From contig JAHFCO010000014.1 in the NCBI GenBank assembly GCA_023249475.1, forward strand, positions 19,782-52,151: a stretch of 32,370 nt of DNA. Reading direction: 5' to 3'. Every line of letters starts with the position of its first letter. Within the stretch, counting starts at the first letter, position 1. Both the position numbers and the translations under genes were made by a program. Shown here in pieces: positions 1 to 17,938 of this stretch. A model generated the notes under the pieces. The model saw nothing but the letters and a program-made list of their open reading frames with translations. It had not been told where the DNA came from and did no database searches. Source of the stretch: Bacillota bacterium (GTDB taxonomy: Bacteria; Bacillota_I; Bacilli_A; Erysipelotrichales; Erysipelotrichaceae).

Positions 1-649
1 AATCCACGTTTTCAAGGTTCATGACCGCTTCCTGACGGGTACGGGTCGCACTGCAGATTTCATCGCTGATGATCGCCTGCGGGTACGTTTCGCCGATGGA
101 GGACAGGATCTGGCGGATGTCGTATTGACTCATCGTCGTTTGGTTGGTGACGAAGATCTTCGTTTCTTGACCGAATGATTTCGGTAAGTCATCCAGCGTT
201 TCGATCAAGACGATCCGCAACGGATCGATACTGATCGCCGCTTGGGATTCGGGATGGTTGCGCTGCCCGATATAAAGAATCCTGAACCCTTGGGCCAGAT
301 AGGTTTTGATCAGTTCCTGGGTATGCAGGACATCGTCGCACGCGGCGTTGACGGTGATCAAGCCCTTCGCCTTGGCACGGGCGACGACTTCGTCGGCGAT
401 GCCGTGGGCGGAGAAAATCACGACGCCCTCCGTAATCCTCTCCAAGAGTTCCATGCGTGAGAGTGATTTATCCTCGATGGTCTCGATGCCCTCGCTCTTG
501 AGCGATTCGACCACGAACCGATTATGGACCAATTCCCCGAGGATCGTTATTTTTTGTCCGGGATAGGCTTTCGCGGTTTGTTTGGCGATTTCGATCGCCC
601 GCACGACGCCTTTGCAGAAACCGCGCGGAATGACATTGATGATTTCCAT
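1..649 (-). CDS. ispH: 4-hydroxy-3-methylbut-2-enyl diphosphate reductase, 3' end cut by window edge
   Basis: IspH is the last enzyme of the MEP pathway, a [4Fe-4S] protein that reduces HMBPP to IPP and DMAPP. I translated the minus strand from the ATG at 649-647; 216 residues are visible before the window ends, so roughly the last quarter is missing. The start is supported by a GAGGA ribosome-binding site a few bases upstream. The N-terminus has the family signature PRGFCKGVVRAI. The three cluster cysteines are at 12, 104 and 199 (the last in ICSATRTRQEA). Also visible are His42, His82, the NHPE motif with the catalytic Glu at about 134, and VTNQTT. The context of Cys104 (NAACDD) departs from the common ATCPxV form, but the cysteine is kept. 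It diverges from the helicase gene, and ispG lies just beyond that gene, the order seen in other Bacillota. Confidence 0.96.
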   Translation of the reverse strand, partial: MEIINVIPRGFCKGVVRAIEIAKQTAKAYPGQKITILGELVHNRFVVESLKSEGIETIEDKSLSRMELLERITEGVVIFSAHGIADEVVARAKAKGLITVNAACDDVLHTQELIKTYLAQGFRILYIGQRNHPESQAAISIDPLRIVLIETLDDLPKSFGQETKIFVTNQTTMSQYDIRQILSSIGETYPQAIISDEICSATRTRQEAVMNLENVD

Positions 650-6219: not shown

Positions 6220-7080
6220 ATGGAAGAAGAATTCGCGGGATTATTCCGGTTTGCGATCAAGAACGAGGCAAGCGATATCCATCTGACACGCGTCAACGAA
6301 ATCGTGGTCGGTGAGATCAGGGTTGCGAACGGTATGCGTAAATACCGCAAGACACTGGAACCGCAACTGATCCGGTTTCTAACATATAAGGCGGATCTCG
6401 ATCTCCTGGATAGTCATCGCCCCCAAACCGGTCAAATGGACTATGTGTTTCTGAAACATGTCTATGAGCTGCGCGTCGCCCACGTCAGGTCGGGGAACAC
6501 GGAGAATATCGTCATACGCATCCTGACCCCCTACACTCAATTGAAATTCGACGGATTGTTTGAAAACGATCAACAAAAAGCGACGATGAAGCGTCTACTG
6601 GCGTTCGAACAAGGACTTCTCTTGATTTCGGGGTCGACCGGAAGCGGCAAGACGACGACGTTGTATCAATGCCTTCGTTGGTTGTTACCGCAGAAAATCG
6701 TAACGATCGAAGATCCGGTCGAACGGAGAATCGAAGGTCTGGTACAGTTTCAGATCAACCACCAGAAAAAATTCGGATTCGAGGAAGCGATAAAACAAGT
6801 GCTGCGTCATGACCCGAACATCATCGTGATCGGTGAAATACGCGACGAGACAGAGGCGCGAGCCGCGTTGCGGGTTGCGTTAAGCGGTCACTTGGTGATT
6901 TCGACGATCCATGCCAACTCCATGAGGAAAACGATCACGCGCATGAAGAATTTCGGCGTGGATCCAAGCGAGTTGGATGAAGCGTTGGTCGGCGTCGTCT
7001 ATCAAACGATGGAGGTCGGTGAAGATGGGAAAAGGAAAGTACGCTTCGATCTTTTCGAAAACGATGACATGGCTCTTTGA
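6220..7080 (+). CDS. comGA: Competence pseudopilus assembly ATPase ComGA
   Basis: A GspE/PilB-family traffic ATPase that powers assembly of the ComG pseudopilus for DNA uptake. It has 286 residues, shorter than typical ComGA of about 350. The N-terminus contains the ComGA/GspE motif NEASDIHL (about 15-22). Walker A is GSTGSGKT (138-145), the Asp box is TIEDPVE, and Walker B is IIVIGEIRDETEA (201-213), followed by GHLVISTIHANS with the catalytic His. No CxxC zinc finger is present, and the C-terminal part is trimmed. ATG 6220 follows GGAGTGAGG. It heads a seven-gene operon in which every later boundary overlaps or nearly so. No promoter I trust is visible upstream (TATAAG at 6198-6203 lacks a -35), in keeping with a regulated competence operon. 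Confidence 0.93.
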   Translation: MEEEFAGLFRFAIKNEASDIHLTRVNEIVVGEIRVANGMRKYRKTLEPQLIRFLTYKADLDLLDSHRPQTGQMDYVFLKHVYELRVAHVRSGNTENIVIRILTPYTQLKFDGLFENDQQKATMKRLLAFEQGLLLISGSTGSGKTTTLYQCLRWLLPQKIVTIEDPVERRIEGLVQFQINHQKKFGFEEAIKQVLRHDPNIIVIGEIRDETEARAALRVALSGHLVISTIHANSMRKTITRMKNFGVDPSELDEALVGVVYQTMEVGEDGKRKVRFDLFENDDMAL

Positions 7081-7996
7081 GAAAGGGGATGTCAGGACGG
7101 AAGAAGCCGGTTTCATGCTTGAACTACTGGAAAGCGGTAGTTCGAAGGAAGAACTGGAGTCGATCCTCCATCTACGAATGAATGATCGTCGTACCGTACG
7201 ACGATATCTGGGGAAGCGTTTCTTTCCCATCTTCGAACAACTCGAAGAAATGATCGGTTTCGGCGCATCGCTGCGGATCGGGCTACACCTTCGTTTGCAG
7301 GAAGATCATGATAAGAAAGGTTATGCGAAAAGGCTGGCTTACCCCGTCTTTCTGCTTTTCACCGCATATTCCGTGCTCTTCATGTTTCTTTTCACCATCC
7401 GTCCGACGATCGAGAACACGCGCTCATCCTTGGGGATGGAACTTGGCATATCCAACGAACTTCTACAATCCGTCTTCTTCTTTACTTCCATCCTTATTTT
7501 CTCGTTGTTCGCGATGTTTTTCTATCGACTTTGCTTTAGACAAGTCCCGATGTATCGATGGTTGCATGAAAAATCACCGCTCAATCCATGGGTCATCAAG
7601 ATTTCCCAACGTTTCTCGCTTCTCTATCAGGAACTTTATCTGCACGGGCGATCCACCCGCGAAATCATCGGGTTTCTCTCTCTACTTAAACATCAATCCG
7701 TCTTGGCGGACATTGCGCTTCAGATGCAGGTCGAACTTGAAAAAGGGGGGAAACCGGATCGTTCGGTCGATGTACTCGATCCGTTTCTTTCCAGGATCCT
7801 AAAGGTCGAATCGCATCCGGATTTCGTACAGAAACTTAAACAGTATTCCTTGGTCGCTCAGAAAAGGAGTGAATACTTCGTCGAAAAAATCGCGTATGGC
7901 GTGACGATCTTTGCTTATCTCTCGATTGTCCTACTTGTTCTGTCGATCTATCAGGAAATCATGTTCCCCCTGCAGATCCTTCAGGGGATGAACTAA
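7025..7996 (+). CDS. comGB: Competence pseudopilus membrane platform protein ComGB
   Basis: A type II secretion/type IV pilus inner-membrane platform (T2SF/GspF family), 323 residues, that works with ComGA to assemble the pseudopilus. Three hydrophobic segments are visible: about residues 102-121 (YPVFLLFTAYSVLFMFLFTI), about 143-165 and about 290-312 near the C-terminus. This is the usual layout of two cytoplasmic four-helix domains separated by membrane spans, though the first domain is short. I chose ATG 7025 because GGAGGT (7011-7016) lies 8 bases upstream; an in-frame ATG at 6977 has no ribosome-binding site and would lengthen the overlap with comGA. As drawn the two genes overlap by 56 bases, suggesting translational coupling. 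Confidence 0.88.
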   Translation: MGKGKYASIFSKTMTWLFEKGDVRTEEAGFMLELLESGSSKEELESILHLRMNDRRTVRRYLGKRFFPIFEQLEEMIGFGASLRIGLHLRLQEDHDKKGYAKRLAYPVFLLFTAYSVLFMFLFTIRPTIENTRSSLGMELGISNELLQSVFFFTSILIFSLFAMFFYRLCFRQVPMYRWLHEKSPLNPWVIKISQRFSLLYQELYLHGRSTREIIGFLSLLKHQSVLADIALQMQVELEKGGKPDRSVDVLDPFLSRILKVESHPDFVQKLKQYSLVAQKRSEYFVEKIAYGVTIFAYLSIVLLVLSIYQEIMFPLQILQGMN

Positions 7997-8005
7997 GGAG
8001 GAATC

Positions 8006-8299
8006 ATGAAACAGGGGTTTACGATGTTGGAAATGATCTTGGTGCTCGCCGTTTTAAGCGTATTGTTGATTTTGACCGTCCCGAACATCCAACAGGTTCT
8101 TTCCATCGTGCAGAACAAGGGGTGCGATGCCCAAAAGAAAATCGTGGACACCGCGATTCTCGAATACACCCTCGCCAACGGCAACGGACCGGAATCGATC
8201 CATGATCTGGTGGACGAAGGTTTATTGACGGATGAACAGCGTTTTTGCCAGAATCATGATGAAATCGTGGTCGACGATGGACAAGCCGCGATCCGATAA
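8006..8299 (+). CDS. comGC: Major competence pseudopilin ComGC
   Basis: The major subunit of the competence pseudopilus, 97 residues. The class III signal is clear: a short leader MKQG, then FTMLEMILVLAVLSVLL, with cleavage expected between Gly4 and Phe5 and the conserved Glu at mature position +5. A hydrophobic helix of about 20 residues follows, then a soluble domain with two cysteines (in KGCDAQ and RFCQNH) that could form the intramolecular disulfide known for ComGC. Length and layout match the family. AAGGAGG lies just upstream of ATG 8006. Processing would need a ComC/PilD prepilin peptidase encoded outside this window. Confidence 0.93.
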   Translation: MKQGFTMLEMILVLAVLSVLLILTVPNIQQVLSIVQNKGCDAQKKIVDTAILEYTLANGNGPESIHDLVDEGLLTDEQRFCQNHDEIVVDDGQAAIR

Positions 8300-8597
8300 A
8301 GGGTTCACCTTGATTGAAATGATGCTGGTGTTCCTTCTGCTTTCCGTTTTTGGCAGTAGTGTCGCGAAACCGGTCCGAGCGTTTTTGTATCAAGAAACGC
8401 AAAACAAGATCATCCACGCACAAACCACGGCGCTTTTCCTTCGAACCACGACACGCCTTCGCTTGGATCCCGGCATCGATTGTTTCAACGATGTTTTCTT
8501 CAATGCGAAAGGGAACGTCAATACCGCGCAAACGCTGACCTTCGCGAACGGACGCGAAATCGTCATCGGAATCGGACCGGGGCGCATCCATGACTAA
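8277..8597 (+). CDS. comGD: Minor competence pseudopilin, ComGD position
   Basis: A prepilin-like protein of about 106 residues in the comGD position. It begins MDKPRSDKG, then FTLIEMMLVFLLLSVFG: a class III signal with Glu at +5 and a hydrophobic helix, then a soluble domain. Minor pseudopilins of this kind form the tip that primes pilus assembly. ATG 8277 gives the short leader expected for a prepilin. ATG codons at 8256 and 8259 are possible but make a longer leader, and none has a strong ribosome-binding site, so translation is probably coupled to comGC, which it overlaps by 23 bases. Function comes from the N-terminal motif and gene order; the rest diverges too much for me to recognise. 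Confidence 0.82.
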   Translation: MDKPRSDKGFTLIEMMLVFLLLSVFGSSVAKPVRAFLYQETQNKIIHAQTTALFLRTTTRLRLDPGIDCFNDVFFNAKGNVNTAQTLTFANGREIVIGIGPGRIHD

Positions 8598-8775
8598 AGG
8601 GTTCGTGTTGATCGAAGTCCTTTTGTCGATGTTGGTTCTGATGTTTTCGTTTCAACTCGTTTTCGTCTCGCTTCAGTACAGTACGAAAAGATCGATGGAT
8701 TTTGAAGACAGTCCTTGGAATCGACTAGGGAAAGGATGTGGCTATCCATGCATCATCGAAGAGGATTCACCCTGA
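8590..8775 (+). CDS. comGE: Very short prepilin-like protein, ComGE position
   Basis: Only 61 residues: leader MTKG, then FVLIEVLLSMLVLMFSFQLVF with Glu at +5, then about 35 further residues. The ComGE proteins I know are about twice as long. The 3' end overlaps the start of the next gene by 28 bases, so a frameshift would have to sit within or before that overlap; I do not see homologous coding sequence left over. It may be a minimal minor pseudopilin consisting of little more than the packing helix, or a degraded one. It overlaps comGD by 8 bases (ATGACTAA). Confidence 0.7.
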   Translation: MTKGFVLIEVLLSMLVLMFSFQLVFVSLQYSTKRSMDFEDSPWNRLGKGCGYPCIIEEDSP

Positions 8776-9143
8776 TCGAACTACTCATCGCCCTAAACTT
8801 GTCCATGGTGGTGATTCACTTGATGGTGTTCGCCTTATCGTCGCTTCGTTTTCCTTCATCCCAGATCGATATACGACAGAATCTGAACGGGGTTTATCAA
8901 CTTCGGCAAAGATTGGCGCTCTGTCGAGTCAAGAAAGTCGAACGTCGAAGCATCCTCTGTACGTTCGATCACAAAGAACATGAACTTCGATTCGAAGATG
9001 ATCGTCTAGTCATGCGTCCGGGCTATGTCGTCTACATGGAGAATCTCGAGGCGGGTTTCTTTGAAGAACAGGACAAGGTCATCCGTGTCGCGTTCACGGC
9101 GGAAGGGGAGGAGGTCCATGCGGTGCTCGCCATGCTCGAATAG
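8748..9143 (+). CDS. comGF: Minor competence pseudopilin, ComGF position
   Basis: A prepilin-like protein of about 131 residues. It begins MHHRRG, then FTLIELLIALNLSMVVIHL, with Glu at +5 and a hydrophobic helix, followed by a soluble domain rich in charged residues. I chose ATG 8748 because AAAGGA (8731-8736) lies at suitable distance and the leader then has the standard six residues; ATG 8736 and 8715 are in frame upstream but give odd leaders. It overlaps the short comGE-position gene by 28 bases. Assigned by motif and position in the operon. Confidence 0.8.
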   Translation: MHHRRGFTLIELLIALNLSMVVIHLMVFALSSLRFPSSQIDIRQNLNGVYQLRQRLALCRVKKVERRSILCTFDHKEHELRFEDDRLVMRPGYVVYMENLEAGFFEEQDKVIRVAFTAEGEEVHAVLAMLE

Positions 9144-9486
9144 AGGTTTCATTCTGCTTCGAACCTTGCTTTTCTTCTCCTTCTGCATCCAGTTCTATCT
9201 CTGTGTTTCCGCCATTGCCATTTCAATGCGATCCGAGAACAAAATGAACGAACGTCTTGAAGAATTTTCGTTTTTCGAGGCGGCCGTTCTATCCAAAATC
9301 CATCACGACATTCAGTCGATGGATTATCTGGATTTCGAGCTTGAGATGGATGAACAAAGGGTTTTCGTTACCTTTGATCAACAAAAAGCAAGGCTTGAAT
9401 TCACCGGCTCGACGGTCGTGACGATGGTTTTAAGGTTCGACGATTTGGAAGGATGTTTCGAGGAGTATTCCGAAGAATCGCATTGA
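9118..9486 (+). CDS. comGG: Minor competence pseudopilin, ComGG position
   Basis: The last gene of the comG operon, about 122 residues. It begins MRCSPCSNRG, then FILLRTLLFFSFCIQFYL, a hydrophobic helix following a Gly-Phe cleavage site. At mature position +5 it has Arg instead of the Glu found in the four other pseudopilins here. As I recall, B. subtilis ComGG and the related GspK proteins also lack this Glu, so the change fits the tip-subunit role. The leader contains two cysteines. ATG 9118 has GGAGGAGGT just upstream, and the gene overlaps comGF by 26 bases. Identity rests on position and the N-terminal pattern. Confidence 0.75.
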   Translation: MRCSPCSNRGFILLRTLLFFSFCIQFYLCVSAIAISMRSENKMNERLEEFSFFEAAVLSKIHHDIQSMDYLDFELEMDEQRVFVTFDQQKARLEFTGSTVVTMVLRFDDLEGCFEEYSEESH

Positions 9487-15206: not shown

Positions 15207-15896
15207 ATGAATGATCCGATTCAAATGATTCTCTACTTCGCGGCGATCATCCTTGTGGTTTGGGCACAAACCAAAGTCAAGGGTGTCTATGAGCATTATA
15301 GCCGCGTACCAAGTGAAAAGCGTATCTCCGGTGCCCAAGTGGCGCGTCGGATCCTCGACAGTCACGGGTTGCATCATGTGGAAGTCCAGATGAGCCAAAA
15401 CGGGGTGTTGAGCGATCATTTCGACCCGCGCACCAACGTGGTCAACCTTTCACCGAAAGTCTACAACGAGGATTCGATCGCATCCGTCGCCGTCGCGGCC
15501 CATGAAGTCGGACACGCCATCCAGTTCGCCGAAAACTATAGTTTCATCGGAATCCGCAACAAGCTGCTTCCGGTCGCGATCGTCTCGGGGAACCTGGGCT
15601 GGTTCGTCATCATCATCGGGTTGATTTCAGGATTCATGCCGATTTTCTATCTCGGCTTGGCGATGCTGGCGATGATCGCGCTCTTTCAACTCGTCACCTT
15701 ACCGGTTGAATTCGATGCCTCGGGACGTGCCTTGGCCATCCTTCGAAACGACGGATATCTGTCCGAAGATGAAGGGGCCGATGCCAAGTCGATGTTGCGT
15801 GCCGCGGCGTTGACCTATGTCGCCGCCTTGTTGGCGACGCTGATGCAAATCCTCCGCCTCGTCTTGATGTCGCAACGCGGAAGCCGTCGCAGATAA
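15207..15896 (+). CDS. Membrane zinc metallopeptidase, YugP family
   Basis: A 229-residue integral membrane protein of the neutral zinc metallopeptidase group (Zn_peptidase_2, YugP-like). The zinc motif is HEVGHAIQ near residues 97-104, preceded by VAVAA, with a further conserved acidic segment, PVEFDASGRA, near 168-177 that probably supplies the third ligand. Hydrophobic helices lie at about 5-22, 115-160 (two spans) and 195-220. Substrates of this family are not established. GAGGAA precedes ATG 15207, 21 bases after HU, so it may share HU transcripts. A UUCG-loop terminator follows. Confidence 0.9.
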   Translation: MNDPIQMILYFAAIILVVWAQTKVKGVYEHYSRVPSEKRISGAQVARRILDSHGLHHVEVQMSQNGVLSDHFDPRTNVVNLSPKVYNEDSIASVAVAAHEVGHAIQFAENYSFIGIRNKLLPVAIVSGNLGWFVIIIGLISGFMPIFYLGLAMLAMIALFQLVTLPVEFDASGRALAILRNDGYLSEDEGADAKSMLRAAALTYVAALLATLMQILRLVLMSQRGSRRR

Positions 15897-15903
15897 ACAA
15901 ATC

Positions 15904-15925
15904 GCTCCTTCGGGAGCTTTTTTTT
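15904..15925 (+). terminator. UUCG-loop terminator after the zinc peptidase gene
   Basis: GCTCC, tetraloop TTCG, GGAGC, then eight T residues. A very stable hairpin with a strong tail, just 45 bases before the next start codon. Confidence 0.92.
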
Positions 15926-15969: not shown

Positions 15970-16347
15970 ATGGCTTATCTTCATACCGGCGACAATACAG
16001 CGACAACCAGTTTTTCCTACTATCCATGCGAAACGGATTCGATCTTCATCATCGGACTACAATCCGATGAAACGGTTTTGTCCACCGATCCGTTCTTTCA
16101 GCAAAACGCCGATGGCTACTTGGCGATCGACGATCGTTTTTCGACGCTTTACATCATGAAGAAGGGAGTGTTGACGAAACGTTTCGATCTTCGGTGGGAA
16201 ACGGGATGCGCCACCGAAACCATCCTCGAGCAGACTCCCGGGCAGCATTTGGAACGATCCTTGCCAACGCAACCCTGGCTGACGATCATCGCTGCGGGAG
16301 TCTTGACGATTCTTTTGGCAAGGAAGGTGTTCCATGCGGAAAAGTAG
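15970..16347 (+). CDS. Unrecognised 125-residue protein with a C-terminal membrane helix
   Basis: I do not recognise this family. About 100 polar residues with two cysteines (20 and 80) precede one hydrophobic helix (WLTIIAAGVLTILLA, about 103-117) and a short basic tail (RKVFHAEK). There is no N-terminal signal peptide. By the positive-inside rule the basic tail should be cytoplasmic, which would put the N-terminal domain outside the cell; this is inference. The ribosome-binding site (GGGAAGGGGTGA) is strong but lies in a 13-bp hairpin. The gene overlaps the next one, encoding a secreted protein, by 14 bases in another frame, so the two are probably translated together and may act together at the surface. 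Confidence 0.75.
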   Translation: MAYLHTGDNTATTSFSYYPCETDSIFIIGLQSDETVLSTDPFFQQNADGYLAIDDRFSTLYIMKKGVLTKRFDLRWETGCATETILEQTPGQHLERSLPTQPWLTIIAAGVLTILLARKVFHAEK

Positions 16348-17827
16348 TCTTCTTTGGGTTGGACTCCTGTTGGTCCTCATCACGATCCCTACATTGGCGG
16401 CGGGGGAAACCATCGTTTCGAAGACGTTGCTCCCCTATGAAATCCTGAATGTGTCGATGACACAGAGTACGATGACGGTCACCGGTTGGGCGATTCTTAA
16501 CGAAACCCAACACTTCATCAACGCAGCCGATCATTCCTACGAACTTGAATTCGCTTCACCCGAACACACGTTTCGAGTCAACGGAACCATCACGAGTACG
16601 ACGCTGACGGATACTTTCCGCTACGGCGGCGCCCCGATCTGTGCGACAACGGCATACTTTAAGACGGATACCACCTGTTATTACCGGTTTGAGAACGCAG
16701 GTTTCAGTTTCAGTGTTCCGATCGATGGCTTGGAAATCGGTCGGAACTACACGGTTTATCTTGTGGTCCATGCCAAAAACGCGAACTTCCATAAGAAAAT
16801 CCCGGTATACTACCCGATCTTAAACGATCTCGTGATGATGAATGGTCAAAAAGAGTACAGAGTCGTGTCAAAACTGAACGATACGAAATTCACCGTCAAG
16901 TATGCCACCGTGGCCGCAAGAAAAGGTCCGGATCGGTCGTATGTCGCATGGAGCTACGGGTCGAACTGCTCGACAACCTATGGAAACGATCATTTCTTTC
17001 TCCTGAATTCCGTCTATACGAACATCAAAGAGCGCTATCTAAACAATACGAACAAGATGACCTATTACCGCGTATCAACAACCCTCGCTTCATGCGTCGA
17101 TTCCAGGCGCCGCGTGGTGGAAGGGGAGAGCTTCAGCCCGGTATGGATCGCCAGTAGTTTCGTCGAATACAGCGGAACGCCCATGCTTGTCAGCACACGG
17201 ATCCTCAATACGGCACCGGTCATCAACGTAGAAAACATCGTTCTAAACGTAGGTGAGACATTTCGGTGGGAAGACCATGTCACGGCATACGATGCCGAAG
17301 AAGGCAATCTGACCCATAAGTTGATTGTAATTAGTGATAATTATCACAATATGCCTGGCAACTATCAGATGTCTTTCGAAGTGAGCGATCAATACGGCGC
17401 CAAAGCGTCGGCGACGCTTATGATCACCGTTCTCGAGCCTGAAAACAACCTCCCGATGATCCATGCTGAAGATTTCAGCGTCCTCATGCGTTCGAAAGTT
17501 GATCTGCGGAAGTTCGCCAGCGCCTATGACATTGAAGACGGTGATCTTAGTGCCTCGATCCTCGTCGATACGAGTGCCGATTTAAACGTCGTCGGTGTCT
17601 ATCCGGTCGCGTTTCGCGTCGCCGATTCAAGAGGCGCCATCGCGATCCGAAACGTAAGGATGACCGTCTTTGATTATGACACGATGATCGGACGATTCAG
17701 ATTCGTCGATCAAGAAAATCTTTTCTATTTGGAAGACATTCCGGATCCATGGATCGGCTATACACAACGGTTGAGTCTCTTGCTTGAAACTACCACGGTG
17801 CTTGAGACGATCACGATGGATCCGTAA
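16334..17827 (+). CDS. Secreted multidomain protein with two Ig-like (DUF5011-type) repeats
   Basis: A 497-residue exported protein of unknown role. A signal peptide is clear: MRKSS, a hydrophobic core (LLWVGLLLVLITIPTL) and a probable cleavage after AAG at about 24. Four regions follow: a beta-rich domain at about 30-155 with cysteines 103 and 115; a domain at about 170-285 with cysteines 212 and 254 and an SH3-like look (ATVAARKGPDRSYVAW); and two Ig-like repeats at about 297-367 and 374-446. Both repeats show the cadherin/DUF5011 pattern: AYDAEEGNL or AYDIEDGDL, then a GNYQMSFEVSD or GVYPVAFRVAD strand. There is no LPxTG motif, C-terminal membrane helix or lipobox, so it is released or held by partners. 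The paired cysteines suggest disulfides. Possible roles are adhesion or binding of wall polymers. Confidence 0.82.
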   Translation: MRKSSLLWVGLLLVLITIPTLAAGETIVSKTLLPYEILNVSMTQSTMTVTGWAILNETQHFINAADHSYELEFASPEHTFRVNGTITSTTLTDTFRYGGAPICATTAYFKTDTTCYYRFENAGFSFSVPIDGLEIGRNYTVYLVVHAKNANFHKKIPVYYPILNDLVMMNGQKEYRVVSKLNDTKFTVKYATVAARKGPDRSYVAWSYGSNCSTTYGNDHFFLLNSVYTNIKERYLNNTNKMTYYRVSTTLASCVDSRRRVVEGESFSPVWIASSFVEYSGTPMLVSTRILNTAPVINVENIVLNVGETFRWEDHVTAYDAEEGNLTHKLIVISDNYHNMPGNYQMSFEVSDQYGAKASATLMITVLEPENNLPMIHAEDFSVLMRSKVDLRKFASAYDIEDGDLSASILVDTSADLNVVGVYPVAFRVADSRGAIAIRNVRMTVFDYDTMIGRFRFVDQENLFYLEDIPDPWIGYTQRLSLLLETTTVLETITMDP

Positions 17828-17906: not shown

Positions 17907-17938
17907 AAGGCATGGAATTGAAACCATGCCTTCGTTTT
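17907..17938. terminator. Bidirectional terminator between convergent genes
   Basis: AAGGCATGG (17907-17915), loop AATTGAAA, CCATGCCTT (17924-17932): a perfect 9-bp stem. The plus-strand tail is CGTTTT and the minus-strand tail TTTTCTTAT. It ends both the secreted-protein transcript and the long minus-strand operon finishing with deoB. Confidence 0.88.

Follow-up and report, generated by a model that had tools for sequence, protein, structure and literature searches.

A candidate exported surface module of a compact Tad/Flp-like pilus in uncultured gut-type Bacillota

Two overlapping genes in the genome of an uncultured gut-type bacterium, one encoding a small membrane protein and the other a large exported protein (Y), probably encode an exported surface module, dispersed and undescribed, that belongs to a Tad/Flp-like (type IVc) pilus of a compact and diverged kind. 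Y is inherited almost only with a Tad-like machine, and the pair is therefore probably a surface part of that pilus, a membership that we infer for the present organism. Among the observations that speak against a pilus role, Y lies outside the Tad-like operon in the organism's own family, and many lineages do without the small gene. All positions refer to the window, the whole stretch of 32,370 nucleotides that was analysed. A preliminary description of the window had presented the pair as its strongest candidate for an undescribed two-part surface system; a link to a Tad-like pilus lay outside its expectation.

The gene pair and its products

Both genes are genuine and under purifying selection. 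Against the congeneric genome G001, dN/dS was 0.16 for the small gene (71% amino acid identity, 125 codons compared) and 0.09 for Y (82% identity, 432 codons compared). The two reading frames, their lengths of 125 and 497 residues and their 14-nt overlap (16334-16347) were as the preliminary description had given them, and the features of the locus are listed in Table 1. The host, whose genome encodes three sortases and penicillin-binding proteins, is a walled Bacillota. Terminator-like hairpins lie on either side of the pair; in a scan of the window such patterns were no more frequent than the shuffled expectation, and hairpins similar to the upstream one are readable at the same place in the G026 and G008 sequences. 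The Zn_peptidase_2 gene was not considered part of the system. The surroundings had been called otherwise housekeeping, but they include a competence-type pilus operon (6220-9486) with a T2SSE ATPase (6220-7080), N_methyl pseudopilin-like ORFs (8232-9143) and ComGF-like ORFs. This operon is unrelated to the Tad-like ATPase subfamily described below.

Table 1. Features of the small gene/Y locus, in window coordinates
Feature	Position	Strand	Description
Zn_peptidase_2 (PF04298) gene	15207..15896	+	conserved gene 5' of the pair, or of Y where Y stands alone
Terminator-like hairpin and T run	15904..15917	+	between the upstream Zn-peptidase gene and the pair
Small gene	15970..16347	+	125-aa membrane protein without signal peptide
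Small-protein C-terminal TM helix	16273..16332	+	Arg at helix end (R118) at least 90% conserved
Large gene (Y)	16334..17827	+	497 aa; exported by Sec; no anchor to wall or membrane
Y signal-peptide region	16334..16402	+	residues ~1-23
Y domain 1	16424..16813	+	residues ~31-160; beta-sandwich with conserved C103/C115
Y domain 2	16829..17206	+	residues ~166-291; all-beta, conserved C212/C254
Y Ig-like repeat 1	17213..17434	+	residues ~294-367; PF16403
Y Ig-like repeat 2	17444..17674	+	residues ~371-447; PF16403-like
Y C-terminal tail	17687..17824	+	residues 452-497; semi-conserved 'RFRF.....FY.E.IP..W......L'
Terminator-like hairpin	17907..17932	+	3' of Y

The only hydrophobic segment of the small protein lies at about residues 103-121 and leads into a short basic tail, which bears out the one C-terminal membrane helix described earlier; residues 1 to about 85 make up a Cys-paired beta ectodomain. 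None of the 18 homologues (one truncated at the 5' end by a contig edge) has a signal peptide, and all share a beta-rich region and a single C-terminal TM helix; C20, C80 and one glycine are invariant among them. The N-terminal flank is about neutral in charge, and the net charge of the C-terminal tail is positive in 15 of the 18, being neutral in the two proteins of genus g1 and in that of genome G011. An outside N-terminus, as proposed earlier, is favoured because of this positive-inside pattern and the Cys pair, and an N-out/C-in topology is predicted on these sequence grounds. The G011 homologue (L033 2481-3080) carries a Thr/Ser/Glu-rich linker of about 80 residues between the ectodomain and the TM helix, which resembles the stalks of surface proteins. 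The small protein had no Pfam or NCBIfam match at an E value of up to 1, and a PDB sequence search gave chance matches and no relative. Its structural model was of modest confidence (pLDDT 66), with a best fold match of Z 5.6 (rmsd 2.5, 67 residues) and nothing above background.

Y has a signal-type segment at its N-terminus, no further hydrophobic segment and no LPXTG motif. Cysteines C103, C115, C212 and C254 are invariant in its closest relatives. These features, together with the PF16403 repeats, sustain the earlier account of an exported protein with two Cys-paired domains, two Ig-like repeats and no wall anchor of its own. An LPXTG-type sortase signal was absent from the Y homologues examined, despite the three sortases of the genome, and neither a C-terminal helix nor LPXTG was found in any Y homologue, with or without the small gene. 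The C-terminal tail likewise occurs both with and without the small gene. A scan of Y against Pfam and NCBIfam recovered the Ig-like repeats only, PF16403 (Bact_surface_Ig-like) being the sole match above cut-off (E=1.9e-13; 50.7 bits against a cut-off of 27; two stretches), and this family was matched in all seven Y homologues scanned. The proteins are thus unrecognised, as had been claimed, in having no other family match in Pfam or NCBIfam, but not in the Ig repeats of Y.

The AlphaFold2 model of Y, built with six sequences and of modest confidence (pLDDT 66), comprises a beta-sandwich (31-160 plus strand 285-291), a beta domain (166-291) and the Ig-like repeats (294-447); the tail is poorly modelled. 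The last strand of domain 2 (285-291) was aligned together with domain 1 when folds were compared. A PDB sequence search with the N-terminal half gave chance matches only, and domain 1 had no sequence match in Pfam. In fold, domain 1 resembles Staphylococcus aureus TarS C1 (5tz8; Z 14.3, rmsd 2.4, 124 aligned), the C-terminal domain of Listeria RmlT (8bz8; Z 10.7, rmsd 3.2, 140 aligned) and the N-terminal domain of TarK (8v34; Z 9.5, rmsd 2.7, 111 aligned). The C-terminal region of TarS has been described as tandem carbohydrate-binding modules of the CBM48/CBM68 type (PMC5156392). The modelled fold of domain 1 therefore suggests that Y may bind glycans. TarS C1, RmlT and TarK are CBM-like sandwiches of wall-teichoic-acid enzymes, and domain 1 shares their fold; however, identity to them is 8-9%, and Y is exported and has no catalytic domain. 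The teichoic-acid polymerase family PF04464 is absent from the window genome and occurs in 8 of about 45 Y-bearing genomes of the family versus 91 of about 228 others. Because it is missing from the window genome and from most Y-bearing genomes, we take the likeness to TarS as one of fold only, and teichoic acid is not favoured as the specific ligand. The Ig repeats match those of ZmpB (7jrl; Z 12.7, rmsd 1.2, 74 aligned) and chitinase 60 (4mb3; Z 11.0, rmsd 3.2, 156 aligned), and Y 294-447 is like the PF16403 modules of these proteins in both sequence and fold; unlike them, Y carries no enzyme domain.

Genus g3 encodes an exported protein of 848 residues (L107 4373-6919, L108 508-3054) that weakly resembles Y domain 1. 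A glucosaminidase domain (PF01832) is present in the L107 copy, and the gene stands between one like galE, on its upstream side, and one for a PASTA protein. Domain 1 may also be present in wall hydrolases.

It is also conceivable, if fairly unlikely, that Y is an adhesin or glycan-binding protein held in the wall by its own CBM-like domain, and that its tie to the Tad-like machine reflects shared ancestry or lifestyle, the two adherence traits being lost together. Such a protein would fit the resemblance of domain 1 to TarS C1, RmlT and CBM21, that of the Ig repeats to ZmpB and chitinase 60, the lack of an anchor in every Y homologue, and the separate loci of Y and the Tad-like operon in the window's family. 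It fits less well with the organization and co-inheritance of the genes, to which we return below.

Distribution of Y and the small gene

Among 273 genomes of the family, 46 matched a profile of the N-terminal half of Y. A true Y is present in about 44 of these, two being the weak matches to the 848-residue, glucosaminidase-domain protein of genus g3. Y is nearly always present in a single copy. It was found in 1 of 43 genomes from other families of the order, and Y-like proteins occur in two further families of the class.

The small gene was sought in 316 genomes with a profile of 18 sequences. Strong matches were found in 18 genomes, all directly upstream of Y and overlapping or abutting it (an overlap of 4-72 nt in most, abutting in G011); none was found without Y. 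Four other matches (E 0.004-0.02) were short or interrupted and were dismissed as chance. A hidden copy of the small gene elsewhere in genomes that seem to lack it was also rejected, the profile having matched adjacent copies only. Genera g25, g73, g74 and g33 have Y but no small gene, as do four of the five genomes of g51 and one of g26 (G285), and on a tree of 43 Y proteins the presence of the small gene requires four changes. In G285 (L111 1-818) a transposase-like gene lies about 200 nt upstream of an intact Y and the small gene is gone, with no remnant in the three forward frames.

These distributions bear on a second explanation, namely that the pair is a stand-alone two-part surface system in which the small protein serves solely to anchor Y in the membrane, without any tie to a pilus. 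The strict adjacency of the two genes in 18 genomes, the absence of the small gene wherever Y is absent, the predicted N-out topology and the invariant Cys pair are all in keeping with it. However, five genus groups keep Y in the absence of the small gene, Y never has an anchor of its own there, and a stand-alone pair leaves unexplained both the co-occurrence of Y with a Tad-like ATPase and the operons of two other families described below. We regard this explanation as distinctly unlikely. The preliminary description had asked whether the two genes always occur together in relatives, and had named loss of the small gene with retention of the large one as an outcome that would refute its two-part system. 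The small gene does adjoin Y wherever it occurs (18 of 18 genomes), but Y is retained without it, which is that refuting outcome. Because Y is kept without the small gene, and never with its own anchor, the reading of the small protein as an obligate anchor that holds Y at the surface is refuted. An auxiliary docking role of the small protein is possible.

A third explanation, that Y partners the protease encoded by the neighbouring Zn_peptidase_2 gene, we consider highly improbable. The peptidase gene adjoins Y or the pair in genera g1, g26, g11, g25, g73, g74 and g51, and it lies directly upstream of Y in about 19 genomes without the small gene. Nevertheless, a terminator-like hairpin separates the two in the window, a tRNA nucleotidyltransferase-like gene intervenes in g8, Y of g33 is unlinked and stands behind galE or another gene, and no such peptidase gene was seen directly upstream of Y in G077. 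Adjacency to Y is not strict, and the partnership was rejected.

Association of Y with a Tad-like machine

The window genome encodes a Tad-like operon on contig C9, away from the pair, with genes for a TadE-like protein, a TadA-like ATPase, TadB-like and TadC-like proteins, a Flp-like pilin of 50 residues and a second TadE-like protein. The ATPase matches PF00437 (E=1.9e-27); its best NCBIfam match is to the TadA family (TIGR03819) at 135 bits, which is below the cut-off of 373 bits. The TadB/TadC-like products are two membrane proteins in the right places, of which the first alone matches T2SSF (E=1.4e-4, below cut-off). Across the genera examined the operon runs TadE-like (about 121 residues), RcpC/CpaB (232-240 residues), ATPase, TadB-like, TadC-like, Flp-like pilin and TadE-like (about 110 residues), usually with a type III pantothenate-kinase-like gene downstream. 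RcpC/CpaB scored above cut-off in relatives (G011, E=3.1e-11; G008, E=3.6e-9) and is missing from the operon in g1, in G103 and in the window genome itself. No prepilin peptidase (TadV/A24) was seen in the Tad-like operons examined in the window's family.

The Flp-like pilin of the window genome (G000, contig C9; L141:9809-9961) reads MKAFFEEYGLVLVVTVIATGMI... and was found in 14 other genomes; it is 47-54 residues long and nearly invariant across most genera compared. The pattern MK(A/G/I/M)F(F/L)EEYG(L/M)... is shared by 14 Y-bearing Tad-like loci and the locus of G090. The protein opens with MK directly before the xxxxEY motif, with no prepilin leader, and in most genomes a strong Shine-Dalgarno sequence precedes its gene. 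A motif search recognised no Flp-like pilin at the loci of G025, G236, G077, G316 and G468.

A profile of the C9 ATPase (A8) was searched in 80 genomes, and it separates the Tad-like ATPase from the ComGA, PilB and PilT types of the same genome (about 490-570 versus about 60 bits). At E values of 4e-93 or below, this ATPase was found in 34 of the 35 Y-bearing genomes tested in the family versus 1 of 41 Y-lacking ones, the latter being hand-chosen controls, mostly one or two per genus. The association is strong (Fisher p about 3e-19), on a statistic that ignores phylogeny. The exceptions are G286, which has the small gene and Y without the ATPase, and G090, an 89% complete genome from a Y-bearing genus that has the ATPase without Y; the other Y-lacking genomes had no A8 ATPase or clearly lower-scoring paralogues. 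Within genus g74, neither Y nor the ATPase occurs in the complete genomes G106 and G238, but both occur in each of nine sister genomes tested. G301, a Y-bearing genome of a sister family (E=2e-93), outscores every Y-lacking genome of the family except G090, which argues against proximity to the query as the sole explanation.

Two other families have Y-like genes as members of a Tad-like operon, as seen in G316 (family f3) and G468 (family f12). In both genomes the gene string comprises pilin-like genes and TadB/C-like proteins besides the T2SSE ATPase. The order in G316 is a gene for a 135-residue protein, a small gene (signal peptide and TM segment), Y, two pilin-like genes, a T2SSE ATPase, two membrane proteins and an adjoining A24 prepilin peptidase. 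In G468 it is small, Y, small, Y, DUF5411, RcpC/CpaB-like, T2SSE ATPase and two TadB/C-like membrane proteins, the first four genes forming two tandem small/Y-like pairs. The ATPase of the window genome is 36% identical to that of G468. In a third genome, G328 (f3), a Y-like gene near the end of a contig is neighbour to the same pair of pilin-like genes; the ORF list contained no small-type gene directly upstream of it, and no ATPase was detected in this genome, whose contig breaks there. In three of these four cases (one in G316, both in G468), a gene for a protein with a signal peptide and a C-terminal TM segment lies directly upstream of the Y-like gene, an arrangement analogous to the pair of the preliminary description. 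Such Y-like genes of other families, directly 3' of genes encoding a signal peptide, an ectodomain and a C-terminal TM segment, lie at L132 14839-18634 and L131 9156-11611. Homology of these f3 and f12 small proteins to that of the window is unproven, the TM segment alone matching.

These results speak against a wall-bound Y that shares no more than ancestry or lifestyle with the machine, as Y-like genes lie within Tad-like operons of two other families and Y, as a rule one per genome, is nearly one-to-one with a single ATPase subfamily.

Proposed role and comparison with known systems

A pilus module of the kind favoured here might work as follows. The pilus machine would be encoded on contig C9, and the pair would supply its exported surface part. 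Y would be exported by Sec and then lodge in the wall or surface layer, where its CBM-like sandwich would be joined by another beta domain and a pair of Ig-like spacers. The small protein, its translation coupled to that of Y, would sit in the membrane with the Cys-paired domain outside and, in lineages that keep the small gene, would probably dock Y to the membrane near the pilus platform. Y itself may serve as an adhesin or as a conduit through the wall. We give about an even chance to the fuller picture of a minimal Tad-like pilus of Bacilli with a leaderless Flp-like pilin of 50 residues and a two-protein surface module (a membrane stub and an exported CBM/Ig protein), which in one family occupies a separate, translationally coupled locus that is co-inherited with the pilus.

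It is an open question how bacteria with a single membrane, which have no secretin, get their pili through a thick wall and hold them there, and likewise which component makes minimal Tad pili adhesive. Y is exported, has a fold of the glycan-binding type and is inherited along with the ATPase; it and its small membrane partner are concrete candidates for such a wall-passage or adhesion role. The pair also gives access to an uncharacterised pilus type of uncultured gut Bacillota, which is related to an operon of Clostridia known until now from a language-model prediction alone (PMC9523054).

Tad loci are known in Erysipelotrichia, for example in Bulleidia extructa (PMC12786226). With such monoderm Tad/Flp (type IVc) pili the present system shares the TadA-like ATPase, the TadB/TadC-like and TadE-like proteins, short pilins without a globular domain and, in many genomes, RcpC/CpaB. 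However, its gene set is much reduced (tadG, tadZ and tadV were not seen in the operons examined in the family), and its pilins begin at the xxxxEY motif, leaderless. No counterpart of Y and the small protein was recognised in the Tad literature consulted (e.g., PMC12786226). Miller et al. 2022 (PMC9523054, Fig. 5a) presented a predicted secretion-related operon from Roseburia, Ruminococcus and Eubacterium, described there as containing a CpaF-type ATPase, a PilC/GspF-type platform protein, a DUF5411 protein and a large protein remotely like internalin B. The G468 operon likewise has an ATPase, a DUF5411 protein and Y-like proteins. The operon of Miller et al. is from Clostridia, and the description consulted names no pilin or small TM partner, whereas the system reported here is from Bacilli, has a nearly invariant Flp-like pilin of 50 residues in most genera examined and, in the window's family, carries Y at another locus.
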